Source of the DNA: Oscillatoriales cyanobacterium
Lineage (GTDB): Bacteria > Cyanobacteriota > Cyanobacteriia > Cyanobacteriales > Microcoleaceae
Length of the DNA stretch: 64,000 nt
Direction of reading: 5' to 3'
Assembly: GCA_004292955.1 (NCBI GenBank)
Contig: RDXX01000024.1
Location: 1 to 64,000 of the forward strand
Shown: positions 7,595-38,818 of the stretch, in pieces
Layout: every line of letters begins with the position of its first letter
Position numbering within the stretch: position 1 is the stretch's first letter
The notes under the pieces: generated by a model
Databases searched by the model: none
Seen by the model: only the letters and a program-made list of their open reading frames with translations
What the model was told of the DNA's origin: nothing
Position numbers and translations under genes: made by a program

Positions 7595-8239
7595 TCACTC
7601 CCCTGACTGAATTTCATTCCTCACCCACTCCCGGAACAACCGCAGCAAAGCATTTTCCTTGGTAGTCCTTCTCAACTCCAAAAAGCGCAGCATCTCAACT
7701 TGCGACAAAAAAGGAAAAGTTGGAGAAACCTCTCTTTCTACATATTCCTGTGCTTCCAACTGATAAATTATTAAACGATTTCCGTCGTAGCGCCAAACTT
7801 CCGGTACGCCTAAACTTGCATATAAAGAAAGGCGATCGATCGAACTGCTAGTCACGTCAATTTCCACTACTAAATCTGGTGGCGGATCTTGATTGAGATC
7901 GATTTGTTCTTTGTCCCAAACCACATTCTCATTTTGGATATAGTAGCACTGATCCGGTTCCAAACCGCGAGCCAAATCCTCGCGTCTGCAAGTTAGAGAA
8001 CCCAAACTCCGAATTTCGATGTTTAATTCTTCACTCACACTTTCCACAAAACGGCCTAAAATTTTCTTACTACCTTCGTGCGGTGCTGATGGAGTCATAA
8101 TTTCTAAATTTCCGCGATCGTAAGTCAGGCGAATTCCTCCGTGTTCCCCTAACTCATTCAGCAGGGATTCGTAAGTTTTCCAGCTAATGTTTTTCAGCAG
8201 AATTCCGCTAGTTTGATTCTGGATCAGGGTGGCTGTCAT
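7595..8239 (-). CDS. Uma2 family endonuclease-fold protein (DUF820), second copy
   Basis: The 214 residues have the same plan as the gene at 6188-6826: ISWKTYESLLNELGE near residue 18, RGNLEIMTPSAPHE near 43, and the catalytic PPPDLVVEIDVTSSS block near 118-131, then LYASLGVPEVWRYDG. The fold is PD-(D/E)xK. Uma2 genes often sit in repeat-rich accessory regions, as here. The two copies are not adjacent and lie in opposite orientation with a small unknown gene between them, so duplication was followed by rearrangement or was independent. The biochemical role is unproven in the family. Confidence 0.9.
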   Translation of the reverse strand: MTATLIQNQTSGILLKNISWKTYESLLNELGEHGGIRLTYDRGNLEIMTPSAPHEGSKKILGRFVESVSEELNIEIRSLGSLTCRREDLARGLEPDQCYYIQNENVVWDKEQIDLNQDPPPDLVVEIDVTSSSIDRLSLYASLGVPEVWRYDGNRLIIYQLEAQEYVEREVSPTFPFLSQVEMLRFLELRRTTKENALLRLFREWVRNEIQSGE

Positions 8240-8590
8240 GGCGACCTACCTGGGTTTTAAATTATTAATTGTATGTTAGCAAATATGATACTTGACTTAT
8301 TTCATCAATCTGCGATCGCCCGAAACCGCAAATCAACGCAAATCAACGCAGATAAAATTAAGATTCGTGGACGCATATATCGAAGAAACCGGGTTTTTCA
8401 CCTACTTTCGTCGCTGCGGCGAAGATTTCGGAAAAAAACCCGGTTTCTGGCTACCTTGGGGACAATCGAAGAAACCGGGTTTTTCACCTAATTTCGTCGC
8501 AGCGGCGAAGATTTTCGGAAAAAACCCGGTTTCTGGCTACCTGTTCGTGGAGTACGATCGCACTATTCGATCGCACTTACACTCAACACA
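8240..8590. repeat. Gap with two copies of a GAAACCGGGTTTTT palindromic repeat
   Basis: Copies at 8391-8456 and 8467-8542 are about 66-76 bp and nearly identical. Each has ends GAAACCGGGTTTTT and AAAAACCCGGTTTC and a centre TTTCGTCGCNGCGGCGAAG, so each is a nested palindrome. Relatives occur at 36777-36842 and as half sites near 11510 and 27327. The left part (8320-8350) carries an AATCAACGCA tandem related to the AACGCAGAT repeat family. The block lies between the fusA stop and the Uma2 start. Confidence 0.8.
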
Positions 8591-10675
8591 CTACTTAGCA
8601 GCTTGACGCTCTTTCGCATCCTTAATCACTTCCTCAGCGATATTGCTCGGACAAGGAGAATAGTGCGAGAAAGACATCGAAAACTGACCGCGCCCAGATG
8701 TCATGGTACGCAAATCGCCAATGTAGCCAAACATTTCGCTCAACGGCACATCAGCCTTGATCCGCGCTCCTGTTTGTCCGGTTTCCTGAGCCTTCATCAT
8801 GCCCCGGCGGCGGTTGAGGTCGCCGATGACATCGCCCATGTGATCGTCTGGGGTGAAGACATCGACATTCATGATCGGTTCCAGCAACTGAGGCCCAGCC
8901 TTGGGTACAGATTGGCGGTAGGCGGCTTTAGCAGCAATTTCAAAGGCCATTGCTGAAGAGTCAACCGGGTGGAAACCTCCATCAACCAGGGTGAATTTCA
9001 AGTCTAAGCAGGGGAATCCAGCCAAGACGCCCACATCGATGCAGCTTTGGAAGCCTTTTTGCACCGCTGGCCAATACTCTCTCGGTACGCTACCACCAGT
9101 TACTTTTGACTCGAACACGAAGCCGCTACCGACTTCACCGGGCTCGACGATATAGCCGATTTTAGCAAATTGACCTGAACCACCAGATTGTTTCTTGTGG
9201 ACATAGTTGTCTTCGAGGCGTTTGGTGATGGACTCGCGGTAGGCTACCTGCGGTTCGCCAACTTCTACCTCGACGCCGTGGGTGCGTCGCAGAATGTCCA
9301 CTTTGATGTCGAGGTGCAGTTCGCCCATGCCCTTGAGGATGGTTTCGCCACTTTCTTCGTCTGTGACCATGTGGAAAGATGGGTCTTCTTGTACCATCTT
9401 GGTGAGCGCGGCTCCCATCTTTTCTTCGCCTCCTTTGAGTTTCGGTTTGACCGAAATGGAGATGACTGGTTCTGGGAACACCATTGGCTCTAGGGTTGCG
9501 GGATTTTTGGGGTCGCAGATGGTGTGTCCGGTGCGGACGTTTTTCATACCTACGATCGCAATAATATCGCCTGCTTGAGCCGAATCAATTTCTTCGCGGG
9601 AGTTGGCGTGCATTTCTACCAAGCGGCTGATGCGCTCGGTTTTGCCTGTGGCGGTGTTGAGTACGGTGTCGCCTTTGGATATCTTACCGGAGTACAAACG
9701 GGTGAAGGTTAAAGCGCCGAAGCGATCGTCCATAATCTTAAATGCCAGGGCGCGCAAAGGGCCTTCTGGATCCACGATCGCGAAATTGCCTGTTTCCTCG
9801 CCTTCGAGATCCACCTCAGGCTGAGGCGTAACTTCCATCGGGTTCGGGAGGTAGTCAACGACTGCATCGAGTACCAACTGGACGCCCTTATTCTTAAACG
9901 ACGAGCCGCAGTAGGTGGGGAAAAATGCCATGTCGCGGGTGCCTTTGCGGATGCACCGCTTGAGGTCTTCGATACTCGGCTCGTTGCCTTCGAGGTACTG
10001 TTCCATCAGGTTATCATCCTGCTCGACAGCCAGTTCGATCAACTGTTCGCGGTATTTCTCGACATCATCGACCATATCGGCCGGAACATCCTGAATTGTG
10101 TAGCCCATCGGATCGCCCGAATCATCCCAGATCCATGCTTTGCGGGTGAGCAAATCGACCATGCCGCAAAATTTGTCTTCAATGCCGATCGGCAAAACCA
10201 TTACCATTGGTTTAGCTGCGAGGACTTTATCGACTTGCTTGACAACTCGGTAAAAATCTGCGCCCGTGCGATCGAGCTTATTGATATAGACGATACGAGC
10301 AACTTTAGAATCGTTAGCGTAGCGCCAGTTAGTTTCCGATTGCGGTTCAACTCCACCGGAACCGCAGAACACACCGATACCGCCATCGAGAACCTTGAGC
10401 GAACGGTAAACCTCGATCGTAAAATCGACGTGTCCGGGAGTATCGATGATGTTGAGCTGATGCTCGTTCCAGAAGCAGGTAGTAGCAGCGGATTGAATCG
10501 TAATCCCGCGTTCTTGCTCCTGTTCCATGAAGTCAGTCGTCGCCGCGCCTTCGTGTACTTCACCGATTTTGTGGATTTTACCCGTCAGTTTCAGGATTCT
10601 TTCAGTTGTGGTGGTCTTGCCAGCATCTACGTGGGCGAAGATGCCGATATTTCGATAACGAGTGAGATCTTTCAT
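8591..10675 (-). CDS. fusA: Elongation factor G (stand-alone paralogue)
   Basis: EF-G is the GTPase that moves tRNA and mRNA through the ribosome. The 694 residues cover all five domains. G1 is [11 protein letters not shown] (residues 14-24), the switch region contains RGITI, G3 is DTPGH (78-82) and G4 is NKLD. Domain IV ends in a normal EF-G C-terminus. Cys104 in GVFCGSGG matches the redox-sensitive cysteine position known from cyanobacterial EF-G. Two points suggest a secondary paralogue: G4 reads NKLD rather than the usual NKMD, and the gene is isolated from rpsL, rpsG and tufA. Cyanobacteria often carry more than one EF-G. The exact subtype cannot be fixed without a tree. Confidence 0.95.
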
Positions 10676-32901: not shown

Positions 32902-33192
32902 ATGATCAACCTTTCAAGAGACATACATTCTCTCACCGATTTCAAACGTAATACGACTGAGTTTGTGCAGCGACTGAAGCAAACAAAAAATCCTTTAGTT
33001 TTAACTGTCAACGGGAAAGCAGAGTTAGTTGTTCAGGATGCTGAATCTTATCAGAAGCTTTTAGATGCAGTTGAGTTATTGGAGAGTTTAAAGGGAATTA
33101 AACTGGGCTTGGAACAAATGGATCGAGGGGAAGGGAAAAAAGCGGAGGATTTTTTTAATCAACTGTTTGACAAGTTAGACAGTTCCCCATGA
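32902..33192 (+). CDS. Phd/YefM-family antitoxin
   Basis: The 96 residues match the Phd/YefM fold: an N-terminal DNA-binding half (SRDIHSLTDFKRNTTEFVQRL), the family core NPLVLTVNGKAELVVQDAESYQ, and a C-terminal helix that would wrap a toxin. Phd/YefM proteins repress their own promoter and neutralise RelE- or Doc-type toxins. No toxin gene follows; the next gene, 24 bp later, is an Imm30-like immunity protein. It may be an orphan, or it may be paired with that gene in a new way. The C-terminal KKAEDFFNQLFDKLD region could be the toxin-binding tail. Confidence 0.85.
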   Translation: MINLSRDIHSLTDFKRNTTEFVQRLKQTKNPLVLTVNGKAELVVQDAESYQKLLDAVELLESLKGIKLGLEQMDRGEGKKAEDFFNQLFDKLDSSP

Positions 33193-33216
33193 ATCAGATG
33201 AGGAAGGTAATAGCTG

Positions 33217-33660
33217 ATGAAAGAAAATATTTGGATTAACTTTTTAGAAAAAAATAAATTAATGCGATCGCCTGATGAAGTGACAGCTTTTGAAAATGCT
33301 TTAGCCTCAGTTGCCGATCGTCCTCACAATGAAGATTTGCCAGATTTGCATCTGATTTTAGACGATCGCTGCGAACAGCCAGAAGTCATGTTCGGTTTGA
33401 TTCATTTTTTAGAATCTTTTGATGTGTCAGCACAGATTCAAGCATTTGTTACAGTTATACCGCAATTAATGCTCGTTGCTTCGGAATGGACGAGAATTCT
33501 CCACAACCGCATTTTGAATGATGATGATGCTTGTCGTTTGTATCGAGATATTTTGCATTCATTGAACTCCGAAGAACCTAGTTTTGTTCGTCAATTGCTG
33601 GAAGAAAGCGCTAGTTACAATTTAAGCAAGCGGGAACCAAAATTAGAGTTGGCTAGGTAA
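33217..33660 (+). CDS. Imm30-like immunity protein
   Basis: The 147-residue soluble protein fits the Imm30 pattern as I recall it: DLHLILDDRCEQPEVMFGLIHFLESFD near residues 43-69, a hydrophobic helix (FVTVIPQLMLVASEWTRIL) and RILND near 107. Imm30 proteins protect against polymorphic toxins delivered by secretion systems. AGGAAGG upstream supports the ATG. No toxin, VgrG or Rhs gene is in the window, so this would be an orphan immunity gene protecting against other strains. It lies between a Phd-like antitoxin and an ATPase/TPR pair. The family call comes from memory of the motif and is moderate. Confidence 0.55.
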   Translation: MKENIWINFLEKNKLMRSPDEVTAFENALASVADRPHNEDLPDLHLILDDRCEQPEVMFGLIHFLESFDVSAQIQAFVTVIPQLMLVASEWTRILHNRILNDDDACRLYRDILHSLNSEEPSFVRQLLEESASYNLSKREPKLELAR

Positions 33661-33967
33661 GAATGTTTAGGCAACAGCAAAATCTGTCAAAGGGCGATCG
33701 ATCGTCTGGATGGTGAAAAGCCAGCACTATATCGCTTTGATGAACTTCTTCTTTTAACAGTTCGTTGGCGATTCCTTGTCTTTACAAAAGTATTGGAAAA
33801 CCTGATTTTTAGGACAATAATTAATTATGGTCAGTCGGTGGCGATCGCCATTTTTTGAGTATCGTGTGAGATATGAGTTAGAATTGGGGTTGAAAAGCTC
33901 CACATTGCGATCGCCCCTAATCGCAGTCAACTGTGGGTTCCATCTACAATCCATAATCTAAAATCCG
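33661..33967. other. Gap between the immunity and ATPase genes
   Basis: No intact gene is seen. On the minus strand, 33690-33775 can be read as QGIANELLKEEVHQSDIVLA and on, bounded by stops, which looks like a short coding relic but cannot be assigned. Two ATCTAAA-type units end 4 bp before the next start codon. Confidence 0.4.
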
Positions 33968-35326
33968 ATGACTTCACTCCCACCCAACCGCGCCAAAACA
34001 CTCAAGGAAGCTTACCGCGCTTGCGATGTCAAGCCTCTAGCGGGTGATGATATTGCCCGATATTATGTAGATTTGTCCGCAGTACGCAACACAGTGGCGA
34101 TCGAAAATGTTAGCACGGATTTGGATCTTCAAGAACCGGGAGAATTTAACACAATTTTGTTTACCGGACATCGGGGATGCGGCAAAAGTACAGAATTAAA
34201 ACGCATTCAGTCGCGGTGGGAAAATGAATATCGGGTGATTTATATAGAATTCGATCAGGAACTAGATGTTCTTGATGCTGAATATACCGATTTATATTTG
34301 CTAGTTATCAAAAAAGTAGCTGATGAGTTAACTGAATTAGGATTGAAGTTTGATCCAAAACTATTACATAGTTTTGAATTGTGGTTTAAAGAAGTCACTA
34401 AAGAAACAGAAGAAACTGTTCAATCTTCTGTTAGCATTGAAACTGAAGCAAGTGCAGGGGCAGAAATTCCCTTTATTTCTAAGCTGATGGCAAAATTGAT
34501 CGGTCAAATCCGAGGTTCTAGTCAACACAAACAAGTTATTCGCGAAACTCTTCAGCGCAATCTATCCCGCTTGCAAACAGATATGAATCTGTTGTTAAAA
34601 GATGCTTTTGACAAGCTGATACGCAAATATCCAGGCCGTTACAAAAAAGGATTTTTACTGATTGTTGATAACTTAGACCGCATTACTCCAAGAGTTGCCA
34701 ATCATTTGTTTTTTGATTATGCTCCTCAACTGCAAGAACTAGACTGTACAATTATCTATACAGTGCCGATTTCGGTAATTTATTCATATAAAAATGTCAG
34801 CAATTTATTTGATAGCAATCCCAACATCGTGCCAATGGTGAATATTTATGAATTTAACCGCAGTGAGTGCGATTTAAATTGCAATCAGCAAAGATTAGAT
34901 GGAGTTGCCAGTTTGATCGAGAAACGAGTTGATGTTAGTGCGGTATTTGATGATCGAAAACAGTTGCTAGATTTGGCAAAAGCCAGTGGCGGTCATGTGC
35001 GACAATTGATGCAGATAACTCGATCGGCTTGTCGCACGGCCATTACTCGCAAACACAATAAAGTTTTGGCTGAAGATGTAACTTACGCTTTAAATCAACA
35101 GCAATTTGATTTTGAAAGGTCTACTCCTACACCAGAATATTATACAATACTAGCGCGAGTTTGCATCGACAAAGATATTGCTAAAGAAGAAATCGGACAA
35201 AATTTATTATTCAATCTTTCCGTCTTGGAATACAACGGCAATAGTCGGTGGAATTATGTCAACCCACTCGTAAAACAAAGTTATGCTTTCCAACAAGCCC
35301 TTAGATCAATTCAAGGAAATCCCTGA
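33968..35326 (+). CDS. P-loop AAA-like ATPase of a two-gene ATPase/TPR unit
   Basis: Walker A is GHRGCGKST (residues 67-75) and Walker B is LLIVDNLDRI (230-239). The later GGHVRQLMQI block (near 340) resembles the sensor-2 region of Orc/Cdc6-like and related AAA ATPases. The last 70 residues (LLFNLSVLEYNGNSRWNYV) look like a winged helix. An insert of about 75 residues between the Walker motifs (Glu-rich, 140-215) is helical. It is soluble. Its 3' end overlaps the next gene by 44 bp, so translation is coupled. Such ATPases act as switches in STAND-like and conflict systems; a role in defence is inference from the neighbours only. Confidence 0.85.
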   Translation: MTSLPPNRAKTLKEAYRACDVKPLAGDDIARYYVDLSAVRNTVAIENVSTDLDLQEPGEFNTILFTGHRGCGKSTELKRIQSRWENEYRVIYIEFDQELDVLDAEYTDLYLLVIKKVADELTELGLKFDPKLLHSFELWFKEVTKETEETVQSSVSIETEASAGAEIPFISKLMAKLIGQIRGSSQHKQVIRETLQRNLSRLQTDMNLLLKDAFDKLIRKYPGRYKKGFLLIVDNLDRITPRVANHLFFDYAPQLQELDCTIIYTVPISVIYSYKNVSNLFDSNPNIVPMVNIYEFNRSECDLNCNQQRLDGVASLIEKRVDVSAVFDDRKQLLDLAKASGGHVRQLMQITRSACRTAITRKHNKVLAEDVTYALNQQQFDFERSTPTPEYYTILARVCIDKDIAKEEIGQNLLFNLSVLEYNGNSRWNYVNPLVKQSYAFQQALRSIQGNP

Positions 35327-36776
35327 AATACACCAGCAAAGGATAATTGAATTCAATCAAGAATCTTTTGACCAATTGCTGACGTTTGTCGATATTGTTC
35401 CCGATGATGCCTTTGATTTGGGATTTATTGACTGTAATTTTGCGAAGGATACAGATGCGATTATTCAGGCTTTAATTAATCATCCCGATTGTCAAGAGAT
35501 GCAGTTTGAGATTTGGGATTTTCCCGATCCTGATATGCGCTTTTTGATGGATGAAATTCTGAAGGTTTTGCCAGCAGTCAAGGTTCAACCAGACAAAAAG
35601 TTGATTTTCATTGTGCGGGGAGTGGAAAATGCGATCGGGATGACGGGGGAATATCCGCCAATGTTGGTAGATTTTAATTGGGTGCGAGATGCTTATCCGG
35701 TTATGGTACGGCATCCAATGATTTTTTGTTTGCCAGATTATGCGATTACGCGAGTTGCTAATTATGCGCCGGATTTCTGGGCCTGGAATTCGGGAACTTT
35801 TGTGTTCAAAACTCCGGCAAATACTAGGGATGATGCGATTTCTCAAACTCTGAATGCTAGCAAAGGAATTAGCAATTGTGAGTTACCGGAAAAGCAGGAA
35901 CGGATTAATTTATTGAAACGGTTATTGATTGAATATACTCCGTCGAATGGGCGCGAGGAAACTCCAGGGGATTTGAAAACTCGGATCAGGGTTTTGAATG
36001 AGTTGGGGATTGCTTATCGCAGTCGGAGTGAATATAAAACAGCAAAATATCATCTAGAACAAGCGTTAGGTTTGGCGAAGGATGATGAAAATTTAGGCGA
36101 TGTTAAGGCAAATTCCTTGCATGAATTAGCAATTATTGAGTGCAATGTAGGGGAAATTGAAAAGGCAATTACTTTAGAACAGCAAGCTATGAAAATCTTT
36201 GAACGCATCGGCGATGTTCAAGGGAAATCTGCTACTTTGCACTGTCTAGCCATAATCTATGCGAATAAAGGGGAAGTAGAAAAGGCGATCGCATTTTATC
36301 AAGAATCTCTCGAACTTGAGGAAAAAATTGGCGATGTTCAAGGGAAAGCTGCTACTTTGCACAATCTAGCAGGAATCTATGCAAATCTTGGGGAAGTAGA
36401 AAAGGCGATCGCACTTTATGAACAATCACTCGAACTTAAGGAAAAAGTTGGCGATGTTCAAGGGAAAGCAGCTACTTTGCACTGTCTAGCAATAATCTAT
36501 GCCAATCAAGGGGAAGTAGAAAAGGCGATCGCATTTTATCAACAATCTCTCGAACTTAAGGAAAAAATTGGCGATGTTCAAGGGAAAACTGCTACTTTCG
36601 CAATGCTTGGACAGTTGTTAGCAGCGCAGGGAGATTTTGACCAAGCTTTGAATTATTTACAGCAATCTTTGAAGATTTTACAGCATTTGCGATCGCCCGA
36701 TGCGGAGATAGTGAAGGAAATTATTGCTGAGGTTGAGCAGATGGATGGAGATCGTAAGTTTGCGCGCGGGATTTAG
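35283..36776 (+). CDS. TPR-repeat protein with N-terminal NTPase-like domain, partner of the ATPase
   Basis: Residues 1-190 hold a domain without a P-loop, with LIFIVRGVENAIG near 110 and FCLPDYAITRVANYAPDFWA near 150; the APDFWAW signature recurs in bacterial STAND-type TPR proteins. TPR repeats begin near residue 235. Four near-identical 40-residue repeats (GDVQGK, ATLHCLAIIYAN, GEVEKAIAFY, QSLELKEKI) run from about residue 309 to 440, then a degenerate final TPR. The gene overlaps the ATPase by 44 bp. TPRs bind protein partners, so this is probably the recognition arm of a split regulator, with the ATPase as switch. No effector domain is visible, so the output is unknown. Confidence 0.85.
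   Translation: MLSNKPLDQFKEIPEIHQQRIIEFNQESFDQLLTFVDIVPDDAFDLGFIDCNFAKDTDAIIQALINHPDCQEMQFEIWDFPDPDMRFLMDEILKVLPAVKVQPDKKLIFIVRGVENAIGMTGEYPPMLVDFNWVRDAYPVMVRHPMIFCLPDYAITRVANYAPDFWAWNSGTFVFKTPANTRDDAISQTLNASKGISNCELPEKQERINLLKRLLIEYTPSNGREETPGDLKTRIRVLNELGIAYRSRSEYKTAKYHLEQALGLAKDDENLGDVKANSLHELAIIECNVGEIEKAITLEQQAMKIFERIGDVQGKSATLHCLAIIYANKGEVEKAIAFYQESLELEEKIGDVQGKAATLHNLAGIYANLGEVEKAIALYEQSLELKEKVGDVQGKAATLHCLAIIYANQGEVEKAIAFYQQSLELKEKIGDVQGKTATFAMLGQLLAAQGDFDQALNYLQQSLKILQHLRSPDAEIVKEIIAEVEQMDGDRKFARGI
36210..36609 (+). repeat. 120-bp tandem repeat coding for TPR units
   Basis: Units begin at 36210, 36330, 36450 and 36570 with an exact 120-bp period. The DNA is nearly identical between copies, including silent positions, and each of the first three carries the HIP1-like GGCGATCGCA. 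This shows recent amplification or gene conversion, not just conserved protein. Confidence 0.9.
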
Positions 36777-37420
36777 AAACCGGGTTTCTCACGAATATCT
36801 CGTGAGGATGCGTAAAATCTCGTAGAAACCCGGTTTCTGGCCGCCCTCACCCACCAAACCCTCCAAACCCATCACCAGCCCCGTCCCAGAATATGTCATC
36901 AAACCCTGATATTTGTCCGAACATCGATCCCCTGACGCTCTAAAATATCAATATTCCCTGACATATTGATCCCCGAATCCCCGAAAATGCGTATAAGTAC
37001 CCATGATTAAGGCAAAAGACCCCTTGACCAGACCGGGAGTTGTCTGCAACATTAAGTCATGACAAAGCGATCCCAAAGAAATGCTTTGATTGAGCAACTT
37101 TGGGAGTCAGATAGCGCGTGTGCTGCCGGCACAGCGTTGCTAGCAGCACCGATCGCACTCGCACAATCGATCTTGTCAATCAAGAATCGATAGATAAAGC
37201 TTTATTTAGATCGGACGGTGCGCGCAGAAGCCAATAAGTCAAAAACCCCGATCGCAATTGGGGACAAGACAAGCTAAAAACCAGCAAGGCTTCAAAGGTT
37301 GGAGAGATTCAGAAGCTCGATCGTAATTGTATTTAAAAGAGTTTCTAACTCAAAAAATCAACACATTAGTGTTGAATCGAAAAATCTAACCCGCCATCCA
37401 AATTAGTGGAGAACAAACTC
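36777..37420 (+). promoter_or_regulatory. Long leader region of the DUF4912 gene
   Basis: At 36777-36842 there is one copy of the GAAACCGGGTTTCT palindrome family. The remaining 580 bp has no gene and few repeats. An 8-bp stem (TCCCAAAG at 37071-37078 and CTTTGGGA at 37098-37105) and other small palindromes suggest structure. GGAG at 37408 precedes the ATG at 37421. Confidence 0.4.
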
Positions 37421-38818
37421 ATGGCAAAAGAACGCCCACCATTAGAAGAGATGACTTTGCGACAACTCCGCAGAGTTGCTAGCGAATGTGGAGTCTCTCG
37501 CTACAGCCGGATGCGGAAATCGCAACTTCTGGCATCAATTCAAGAAATTCAGCGCAACAAGTTTTCATACAGTCCATCTCGCAAACTAGAGGCACAAGAA
37601 GCAGTGGAAGCAGCAAAGTTTGAACTAGGTCAAGAAGATAGAACAGGCGGTTCTTTGGCGTCTGTAGATGAAGGTTTAGCAGATTTGCCCAACGGTTACG
37701 GCGAAAGCCGGGTTGTTTTGATGCCCCGCGATCCAGAATGGGCTTACACCTACTGGGATATCCCGAACGATCGCAAACAAGAAATGCGCCGCCAAGGCGG
37801 ACAGCAACTCGCCCTGCGGATCTACGACGTTACAGATGTTAACCTCGACATCCAAAGCCCCCACAGCATTCAAGAATATCCCTGCGACGAACTGGCGCGG
37901 GAATGGTACGTGCCAATCCCCGTAAGCGATCGCGATTATGCGATCGACATTGGCTACCGCTGTGCAGACGGCCGTTGGTTGGTGTTGGCGCGATCGGCAG
38001 AAGTCCGAGTCCCGCCAATCTATCCCAGCGACTGGATTGAAGACCAATTCATCACCCTCGACTGGGAAGAAGACTTGCGCGGCCAAACCTTCGCCGAACT
38101 GGTTCCCCCGGCCAAGAAAATCGCACAAGCAACCAACGGCGTCGGTTACAGCACCGGCAACGCCATCTACCAACAAATCTTCGGCATGGCAGAATCGGCA
38201 GAATCGATGCGCGTAGCAGGTTCGATGTTCGGTTCCATGCAGCACGTTGCAGGTTCGATCCAGCAATCCGCAATCCACGAACAAGCTTTGAGTTCCTACG
38301 TATTCCCCTCCGGTGTTGGAATGTGGGCTGGGGCAGGAATGTCTGCCCTCACTGCGTCAGGTGTGGGTATGTCCGGCCTCACTGCGTCAGGTGTGGGTAT
38401 GTCCGGCCTCACTGCGTCAGGTGTGGGTATGTCCGGCCTCACTGCGTCAGGTGTGGGTATGTCTGGCCTCACCATGTCCGGTTTCGGTATGTCCTCCGGT
38501 GTCGGTATATCGGGAGTTGGCTTTGCCGCCCCGATGCGCCCCCGCCAGTTCTGGTTAGTTGCTGATGCCGAACTGATCGTCTACGGCGCCACCGAACCCG
38601 ATGCTACCGTCTACGTAGGCGGACAGCCAATCAAACTGAATGCTGACGGCACTTTCCGCTTCCAGATGTCTTTCCAAGACGGCTTGATCGACTATCCGAT
38701 TTTTGCAGTAGCAGCAGACGGCGAACAAAACCGCGCTGTCCACATGAAATTCGAGCGCGAAACCCCTGAACGTCGCACCAACACTAAGGAAGATTCTGTT
38801 GTGGAATGGTTGGGCTAA
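37421..38818 (+). CDS. DUF4912 domain-containing protein with a 10-residue tandem repeat
   Basis: The N-terminus has a Rho-N/SAP-like helix pair (MTLRQLRRVASECGVSRYSR, then RKSQLLASIQ) that may bind nucleic acid. The DUF4912 domain covers about residues 90-215, with VVLMPRDPEWAYTYWDIPND and YAIDIGYR. After a linker come five copies of GVGMSGLTAS (about residues 305-355), then a C-terminal FWLVADAELIVYGATEPDA domain that looks like a beta-sandwich. The family occurs widely in cyanobacteria; its function is not known. The start chosen is ATG at 37421 with GGAG upstream; an in-frame GTG lies 15 bp earlier. A strong terminator follows. Confidence 0.88.
   Translation: MAKERPPLEEMTLRQLRRVASECGVSRYSRMRKSQLLASIQEIQRNKFSYSPSRKLEAQEAVEAAKFELGQEDRTGGSLASVDEGLADLPNGYGESRVVLMPRDPEWAYTYWDIPNDRKQEMRRQGGQQLALRIYDVTDVNLDIQSPHSIQEYPCDELAREWYVPIPVSDRDYAIDIGYRCADGRWLVLARSAEVRVPPIYPSDWIEDQFITLDWEEDLRGQTFAELVPPAKKIAQATNGVGYSTGNAIYQQIFGMAESAESMRVAGSMFGSMQHVAGSIQQSAIHEQALSSYVFPSGVGMWAGAGMSALTASGVGMSGLTASGVGMSGLTASGVGMSGLTASGVGMSGLTMSGFGMSSGVGISGVGFAAPMRPRQFWLVADAELIVYGATEPDATVYVGGQPIKLNADGTFRFQMSFQDGLIDYPIFAVAADGEQNRAVHMKFERETPERRTNTKEDSVVEWLG
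38335..38475 (+). repeat. 30-bp tandem repeat within the DUF4912 gene
   Basis: Units of GGTGTGGGTATGTCCGGCCT plus CACTGCGTCA are repeated with a 30-bp period; three are identical and the outer ones differ by a few bases. Copy number probably varies between strains because slippage keeps the reading frame. Confidence 0.9.

Follow-up and report, generated by a model that had tools for sequence, protein, structure and literature searches.

What is accomplished by placing an ATPase and a tetratricopeptide repeat (TPR) array on two overlapping genes is the question raised by a locus in the 7.29-Mb genome of an Oscillatoriales cyanobacterium (GenBank assembly GCA_004292955.1). The locus lies on the forward strand within positions 1 to 64,000 of contig RDXX01000024.1, and this whole 64,000-nucleotide stretch, hereafter the window, was analysed. 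An earlier note, made from the window sequence alone, had described an ATPase gene that overlaps by 44 bp a gene for a TPR protein with an APDFWAW-type nucleoside triphosphatase (NTPase)-like domain, and had suggested that the switch and sensor of a STAND-type regulator are here split between two genes of an undescribed conflict or signalling system. On balance, we slightly favour the view that the pair constitutes a two-component STAND-like NTPase switch, in which an adaptor domain would let the separately encoded ATPase work on a sensor in trans, most likely in a conflict or cell suicide response.

Both open reading frames (ORFs) are present with the described overlap (Table 1). The start of the partner gene at 35283 is almost forced because the next in-frame ATG, GTG, or TTG, at codon 32, falls inside the N-terminal domain (N-domain) of its product. 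The GHRGCGKST, LLIVDNLDR, GGHVR, and APDFWAW motifs are likewise present as described, and the key residues of the ATPase are invariant in an alignment of 60 sequences comprising the window copy and 59 relatives (two fragments at locus L099, the L115 ATPase, and the second of the two ATPases at L090 were omitted). Both the ATPase and the N-domain look to be under purifying selection, with low ratios of nonsynonymous to synonymous substitution (dN/dS) of 0.18-0.27 and 0.21-0.35, respectively (four relatives each); the TPR region yields 0.51 in the comparison of one relative, L064, with the window.

Table 1. Features of the two-gene locus, in window coordinates.
Feature	Position	Strand	Description	Basis
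ATPase gene, component 1	33968..35326	+	452 aa; stand-alone KAP/STAND-like P-loop ATPase	ORF and KAP_NTPase match
Walker A, GHRGCGKSTEL	34166..34198	+	G67, H68, G70, G72, K73, S74, T75, E76, L77 invariant	60 aligned ATPases
Walker B, LLIVDNLDR	34655..34681	+	D234, N235, L236, D237 invariant	60 aligned ATPases
GGHVR	34988..35002	+	sensor-2-like arginine of lid; G341, G342, R345 invariant	60 aligned ATPases
Partner gene, component 2	35283..36776	+	497 aa; N-terminal putative adaptor domain and TPRs	ORF and TPR_12 match, 1.9e-38
Reading-frame overlap of both genes	35283..35326	+	44 nt	
Putative adaptor (N) domain	35355..35840	+	aa 25-186; without P-loop	hidden Markov model match
APDFWAW motif in N-domain	35766-35786	+		
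TPR array	35973..36722 (ends approximate)	+		Pfam and NCBIfam TPR matches
Tandem repeat inside TPR array	36210-36598	+	120-bp unit, 3.2 copies, 88% match	Tandem Repeats Finder

The two genes belong together well beyond this genome, as the search for the pair that the earlier note had proposed makes evident. Among 112 non-redundant ATPases, 92 are paired, 12 are unpaired, and 8 lie at contig ends; with the contig-end cases set aside, 92 of 104 have the partner domain, about 160 aa long, encoded downstream on the same strand. This pooled set, which includes the window, was obtained by dropping ORFs shorter than 380 aa (149 to 134) and copies more than 95% identical (134 to 112). The first 60 fetched loci and the window hold 64 ATPase ORFs or fragments, 52 of them with an N-domain gene within 1.5 kb downstream, and all 50 N-domain ORFs sit downstream of an ATPase in these loci, which were picked by their ATPase. 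A further 80 loci from named genomes, the best 80 of 557 confirmed relatives, yielded 85 ATPase ORFs or fragments, 70 of them with the partner. Reading frames overlap in 58 of the 92 non-redundant pairs, and the commonest distance, as measured from mechanically chosen first starts, is the -44 nt of the window (13 of 92). The pairing of ATPase and N-domain is far beyond chance.

The ATPase occurs in 83 of 386 cyanobacterial genomes (E ≤1e-5) and the N-domain region, searched for with a single-sequence query, in 37 of 386. Among the best 80 of 557 relatives, Lyngbya and Microcoleus are the closest named relatives by ATPase gene, and 16 of the 80 loci, all from metagenome-assembled genomes, are not cyanobacterial. 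The pair is present in 14 of these 16, which extend its range to Chloroflexota, WOR-3, Methanothrix, planctomycetes, gammaproteobacteria, Aminicenantes, and Acidobacteria; the two loci without a complete pair, on Methylococcaceae and Chlorobiaceae contigs, are cut by contig ends. Two of the 12 unpaired ATPases are the first copy of a tandem whose second copy is paired (L083 and L090), one (L115) is a fusion within a ternary system, and at least three (L088, L091, and L112) are solo genes adjoining an aroE-like gene, as read from translations. Solo ATPases with no adjoining N-domain gene were also observed at L093, L096, and L098 besides L088 and L091, most of them near aroE- or DJ-1-like genes by translation, and such ATPases may serve N-domain proteins encoded elsewhere. 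The genome of the window itself encodes five ATPases and seven N-domain matches, which form four adjacent pairs and leave one solo ATPase. A second pair of the same family in this genome (L267; G000 contig C56, ATPase at about 7989-9323, minus strand) has a stop codon in the ATPase frame. At L269:4975-5460 of the same genome, a free-standing 161-aa N-domain is adjoined by two histidine kinase-like genes, and the stretch fetched around it contains no ATPase.

Comparison of the ATPase with known families relates it to the KAP NTPases (PF07693), whose Pfam cut-off of 20 bits it passes with 25.9 bits. Matches at E ≤0.1 to KAP, AAA_16, and nSTAND_NTPase5 are found in 57, 60, and 57 of the 60 aligned ATPases, respectively; for the window ATPase, the AAA_16 match is below the Pfam cut-off, and the cut-offs of nSTAND_NTPase5 (18.8 vs 34 bits) and NACHT (15.2 vs 26.7 bits) are not reached. 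The sensor-2-like block of the earlier note draws weak support from an Orc1/Cdc6 model at residues 335-378, in the lid (E 0.0028), and from Cdc6_lid (E 0.086), both below cut-off; these lid matches weakly fit a placement of the ATPase on the AAA+/STAND side of the P-loop ATPases. Many KAP proteins typically have membrane segments interrupting their P-loop domain. A hydropathy scan gave no indication of such a segment in the window ATPase (top 19-residue hydropathy 0.99), and the corresponding value reaches 1.64-1.75 in at least 5 of the 112 ATPase relatives. Profile searches against solved structures returned no usable homologue, the best E value for the ATPase being 0.0036 (SRP receptor P-loop) and that of the other search 0.09; mS29 appears weakly among the profile matches of the ATPase in the PDB (E 0.37-0.82).

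The N-domain is the element common to the partners, and its nature was addressed with an alignment of 49 copies (that of L090 omitted). These copies lack a P-loop, and A162, D164, and W168 are each at least 90% conserved. Pfam assigns no family to the window copy and none to more than 3 of the 49, the commonest reaching a best E of 0.05; iSTAND (PF19995) is not among the 25 listed of 29 weakly matching families, the four unlisted ones having at most one member each. When profiles of 90 and 92 sequences were compared, the N-domain matched the ATPase with a score of 35.6, a probability of 31%, and an E value of 5e-4 (one comparison), while reversed, shuffled, and block-shuffled controls (n=81) scored at most 24.6. 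As a yardstick, the ATPase and nSTAND1, two genuine P-loop families, score 43.8; the first, smaller profiles of N-domain and ATPase gave no match (probability 0.1%). The N-domain profile aligns to the Walker B and sensor-1 strands of the ATPase, and because the best alignment begins after the P-loop, the comparison supports that half of the fold only. With moderate confidence, resting on this profile resemblance, we consider the N-domain a probable decayed NTPase core, and to this extent the NTPase-like domain of the earlier note stands.

Beyond the N-domain, the partners diverge. The window copy carries the TPRs attributed to it, and 65 of 111 non-redundant N-domain proteins combine N-domain and TPRs by local models. 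The same models find nSTAND1 in 38 of the 111, together with WD40 repeats in 36 of these, and nothing beyond the N-domain in 8. Pfam adds a CHAT domain to one partner of the TPR class (L141, TPR-CHAT) and finds NNH1-NACHT in one partner with an N-domain only by local models (L164). This protein set, from which near-identical members were dropped (118 to 111), includes some that are not adjacent to an ATPase and some cut by contig ends. A membrane-like stretch is found in 30 of 34 partners longer than 950 aa vs 2 of 58 shorter ones. In the window, NTPase and repeats reside on separate ORFs instead of one chain. The proposed split of a STAND switch from its sensor is nevertheless only part of the picture, because 38 of 111 N-domain proteins carry an nSTAND1 of their own; what the family has in common would rather be an adaptor domain on which an ATPase works in trans. 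On a quick tree of the ATPases, in which long branches were flagged, the partner size classes (long, >950 aa; L141 and L144 assigned to the short class by hand) need 2 changes, whereas shuffled classes need about 27. The correlation between ATPase and N-domain distances is r 0.957 over 92 pairs and 0.95 within the short class. ATPase and N-domain are co-inherited, which one operon would give anyway.

Comparison of close relatives reveals the pair as a mobile two-gene unit, because the window and L064 resemble each other at the DNA level (90%) over the two genes only, from 33955 to 36737, with different flanks, and because the window's site is empty in genome G336. There, 281 bp separate the phd region from the DUF4912 region, with neither the pair nor the Imm30 gene of the window between them. 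The pair stands elsewhere in L064, L066, and L125, where the nearby genes read as ssb-, mreB-, and pmbA-like by translation. ATPase relatives are found on eight plasmid records, all cyanobacterial; on one of these, the conjugative Acaryochloris plasmid pREC1 (L274), a tyrosine recombinase gene flanks the pair on either side, with HicBA alongside and a NACHT gene not far off. Immediately after the TPR gene, at 36762-36850, lies a short palindrome-like element (GAAACCCGGTTTCT ends) with at least dozens of matches in five related genomes, which looks like a dispersed repeat of the miniature inverted-repeat transposable element or repetitive extragenic palindromic kind. Further downstream, at 38372-38460, the DUF4912 gene contains a run of SGLTASGV repeats spaced ten residues apart.

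Several loci link the ATPase family to conflict systems. At L090 and on Calothrix plasmid4 (L276), an ATPase gene is followed by an ATPase-TIR fusion (TIR_2, 1.2e-31 and 1.5e-33, respectively) and then by a partner with two N-domains and nSTAND1. Among the 118 N-domain ORFs of the two main samples, two complete N-domains occur in L090 only, the four other candidates being one domain in two pieces; L083 has an ATPase tandem with a single N-domain. The coincidence of two ATPases with two N-domains at L090 and L276 suggests that docking would probably be one to one. At L115 (3990-9209), genes for iSTAND (1.4e-20), a MoxR-like AAA protein, and vWA (8.7e-13) precede an ATPase of the present family fused behind another domain. 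On Nostoc plasmid p057_J (L273, 2051-7224), VMAP (1.1e-33) and an annotated MoxR ATPase are accompanied by a 974-aa protein, annotated as SAV_2336-related, whose C-terminus belongs to the ATPase family (E 7.8e-46). A vWA domain is absent from the Pfam matches of this 974-aa protein, which from its place would be the vWA component. According to Kaur et al., effectors occupy the position behind the vWA component, and at L115 and L273 the ATPase family looks to be in that effector position. Neither MoxR nor vWA was among the matches of the four Pfam-scanned proteins that flank the window pair.

Co-conservation, overlap, movement as two genes, a conserved ATP site, variable partners, and the associations with TIR and ternary systems are the observations from which we infer docking, oligomerization, nucleotide switching, a trigger, and a conflict role, the last made likely by the architecture. 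We propose that the ATPase would be the nucleotide-driven part, probably oligomerizing and supplied in trans, on which the partner would dock through its N-terminal adaptor domain. The variable remainder of the partner, a TPR array in the window, would sense a trigger, relay a signal, or both. A trigger perceived through TPRs or WD40 repeats might lead to ATP-dependent assembly that brings outputs together, the output being provided by fused TIR, CHAT, NACHT, or nSTAND1 domains or, for partners with TPRs only, by a recruited protein. The response would most likely be conflict or cell suicide directed against invaders.

A number of results weigh against this model. The pairing is not absolute, because the genus has retained a subfamily of solo ATPases and because three N-domain matches in the window's genome, at C112, C3, and (a weak one) C11, have no adjoining ATPase. 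The window's own partner has no fused effector. Distances correlate poorly in the long class (r 0.43, 32 pairs), not above permutations, and the N-domain scores 20.7 against the nSTAND1 profile, within the control range. PADLOC returned weak matches for the window ATPase (best E 1.8e-4) and chiefly TPR-model matches for its partner. No relative was found in phage records and viral contigs by one pattern scan and one search with the window ATPase alone. Finally, no excess of defence genes was found beside 20 loci (17 pairs, the solo ATPases L106 and L112, and the ternary fusion L115), which gave 66 PADLOC families (137 proteins) vs 108 (125) in 20 controls, in a small test that omitted proteins longer than 700 aa and counted families instead of genes, with control regions that held reverse transcriptases and methyltransferases by chance. 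The conflict or signalling role suggested in the earlier note thus draws partial support, from the NACHT, nSTAND1, and CHAT partners and from the TIR and ternary links, but none from this small test; similarly, the pair has no fixed housekeeping neighbours and its sites differ among close relatives, but a link to defence islands did not emerge.

The same absence of a defence-gene excess favours a role outside conflict, that of an ordinary ATPase-TPR module for regulation or chaperone adaptation, whose TPR protein would in normal physiology supply the ATPase with clients or regulators. TPRs are generic scaffolds, N-domain plus TPR is the majority architecture, with one member known to add CHAT, and the genus retains a solo ATPase in the vicinity of an aroE-like gene. 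Set against these points are the patchy distribution among cyanobacterial genomes, the changes of site, the empty site, and the plasmid copies, as well as the TIR, CHAT, NACHT, nSTAND1, and ternary conflict systems with which fusion or linkage is seen, and we regard this explanation as rather unlikely. A toxin-antitoxin or polymorphic-toxin immunity island is suggested by the genes directly upstream of the pair, which are antitoxin-like and immunity-like as the earlier note had it: Phd/YefM (PF02604, 1.1e-10) and Imm30 (PF15565, 7e-34). Neither travels with the pair. Among the close relatives compared, Imm30 adjoins it in the window and in L065 only, the latter sharing the window's site; protein searches of the fetched stretches of L064, L066, and L125 found no relative of Imm30 or Phd, and the pair is missing beside the phd region of G336, whose Imm30-like sequence (78%) is on another contig. 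No toxin was recognized among the four Pfam-scanned flanking proteins. Phd and Imm30 were therefore rejected as parts of the system, since relatives carry the pair elsewhere and the G336 site is empty, and an island of this kind is largely refuted and highly improbable. At 32902-33660 the antitoxin gene is itself followed by the Imm30 gene instead of a toxin, an arrangement whose presence or absence is independent of the pair.

A further possibility is that the pair is a member of the nSTAND2 two-gene system already published. As described (Kaur et al., 2021; PMC8195603), this operon encodes one active and one eroded STAND NTPase with variable modules fused, GT4 and HEPN being the commonest, and nSTAND2 is likened to S29/Dap3. 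The shared logic, the weak mS29 match of the ATPase, and the resemblance of the N-domain to the ATPase core all speak for membership; GT4 and HEPN, however, are not among the matches listed for 28 Pfam-scanned partners (three scanned in part; up to 25 families listed for repeat-rich proteins), and we judge membership improbable. A GT4-conflict model tried as a handle on nSTAND2 was rejected as unspecific, as it matches all 14 control genomes.

Returning to the two-component switch, the diversity of partners allows a broader and more tentative proposal, which we regard as possible but short of probable: a general helper-ATPase principle in prokaryotic immunity, by which a separate NTPase ring would dock on the pseudo-NTPase adaptor of NLR-like sensors and license them. 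The sensors would be nSTAND1-WD40, NACHT, and TPR-CHAT proteins with the adaptor at their N-terminus; NTPases on different chains would have to fire together, with one ATPase per adaptor domain, and TPR-only partners such as that of the window would represent a minimal form.

The putative adaptor domain, without a Pfam family, connects a single family of ATPases with NACHT, nSTAND1-WD40, CHAT, and TPR proteins in several phyla. Were docking to hold, STAND-type switching could come in trans, a simple two-protein system would let switch and sensor be separated, and a role would be gained for many cyanobacterial proteins with generic annotations such as ‘ATP-binding protein’, ‘hypothetical protein’, or ‘WD-40 repeat-containing protein’. 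Among the literature matches listed, titles and abstract openings showed nothing on this pair, in a coverage that excludes most subscription journals.

How the pair relates to systems already described can be summarized as follows. Like the KAP family, the window ATPase passes the Pfam cut-off and has a D-N-L-D-R-type Walker B, which resembles the KAP motif; unlike that family, it has no indicated membrane segment and sits beside the gene of an adaptor-domain partner. The ternary conflict systems (PMC7159879) share with the pair a constant NTPase machinery with variable modules, and L115 and L273 carry the present ATPase family; their components, in contrast, are not among the window's scanned neighbours, and the N-domain has no match to Pfam iSTAND. 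STAND proteins of a single chain, nSTAND1-WD40 and NACHT proteins among them, likewise couple an ATP switch to repeats, and some partners contain a whole nSTAND1-WD40 or NACHT protein, but the pair adds an adaptor domain at the N-terminus and a second ATPase encoded separately, and in the TPR class the sole intact NTPase belongs to the ATPase chain. The closest published logic is that of the nSTAND2 two-gene system (PMC8195603). Both are mobile two-gene operons; the NTPase of one protein is active in nSTAND2 and has intact motifs in the present pairs, and the variable modules of the other protein are borne by an NTPase core that is decayed in nSTAND2 and probably so here. They differ in that the modules of the present pairs are TPRs, nSTAND1 (alone or with WD40), NACHT, and CHAT.

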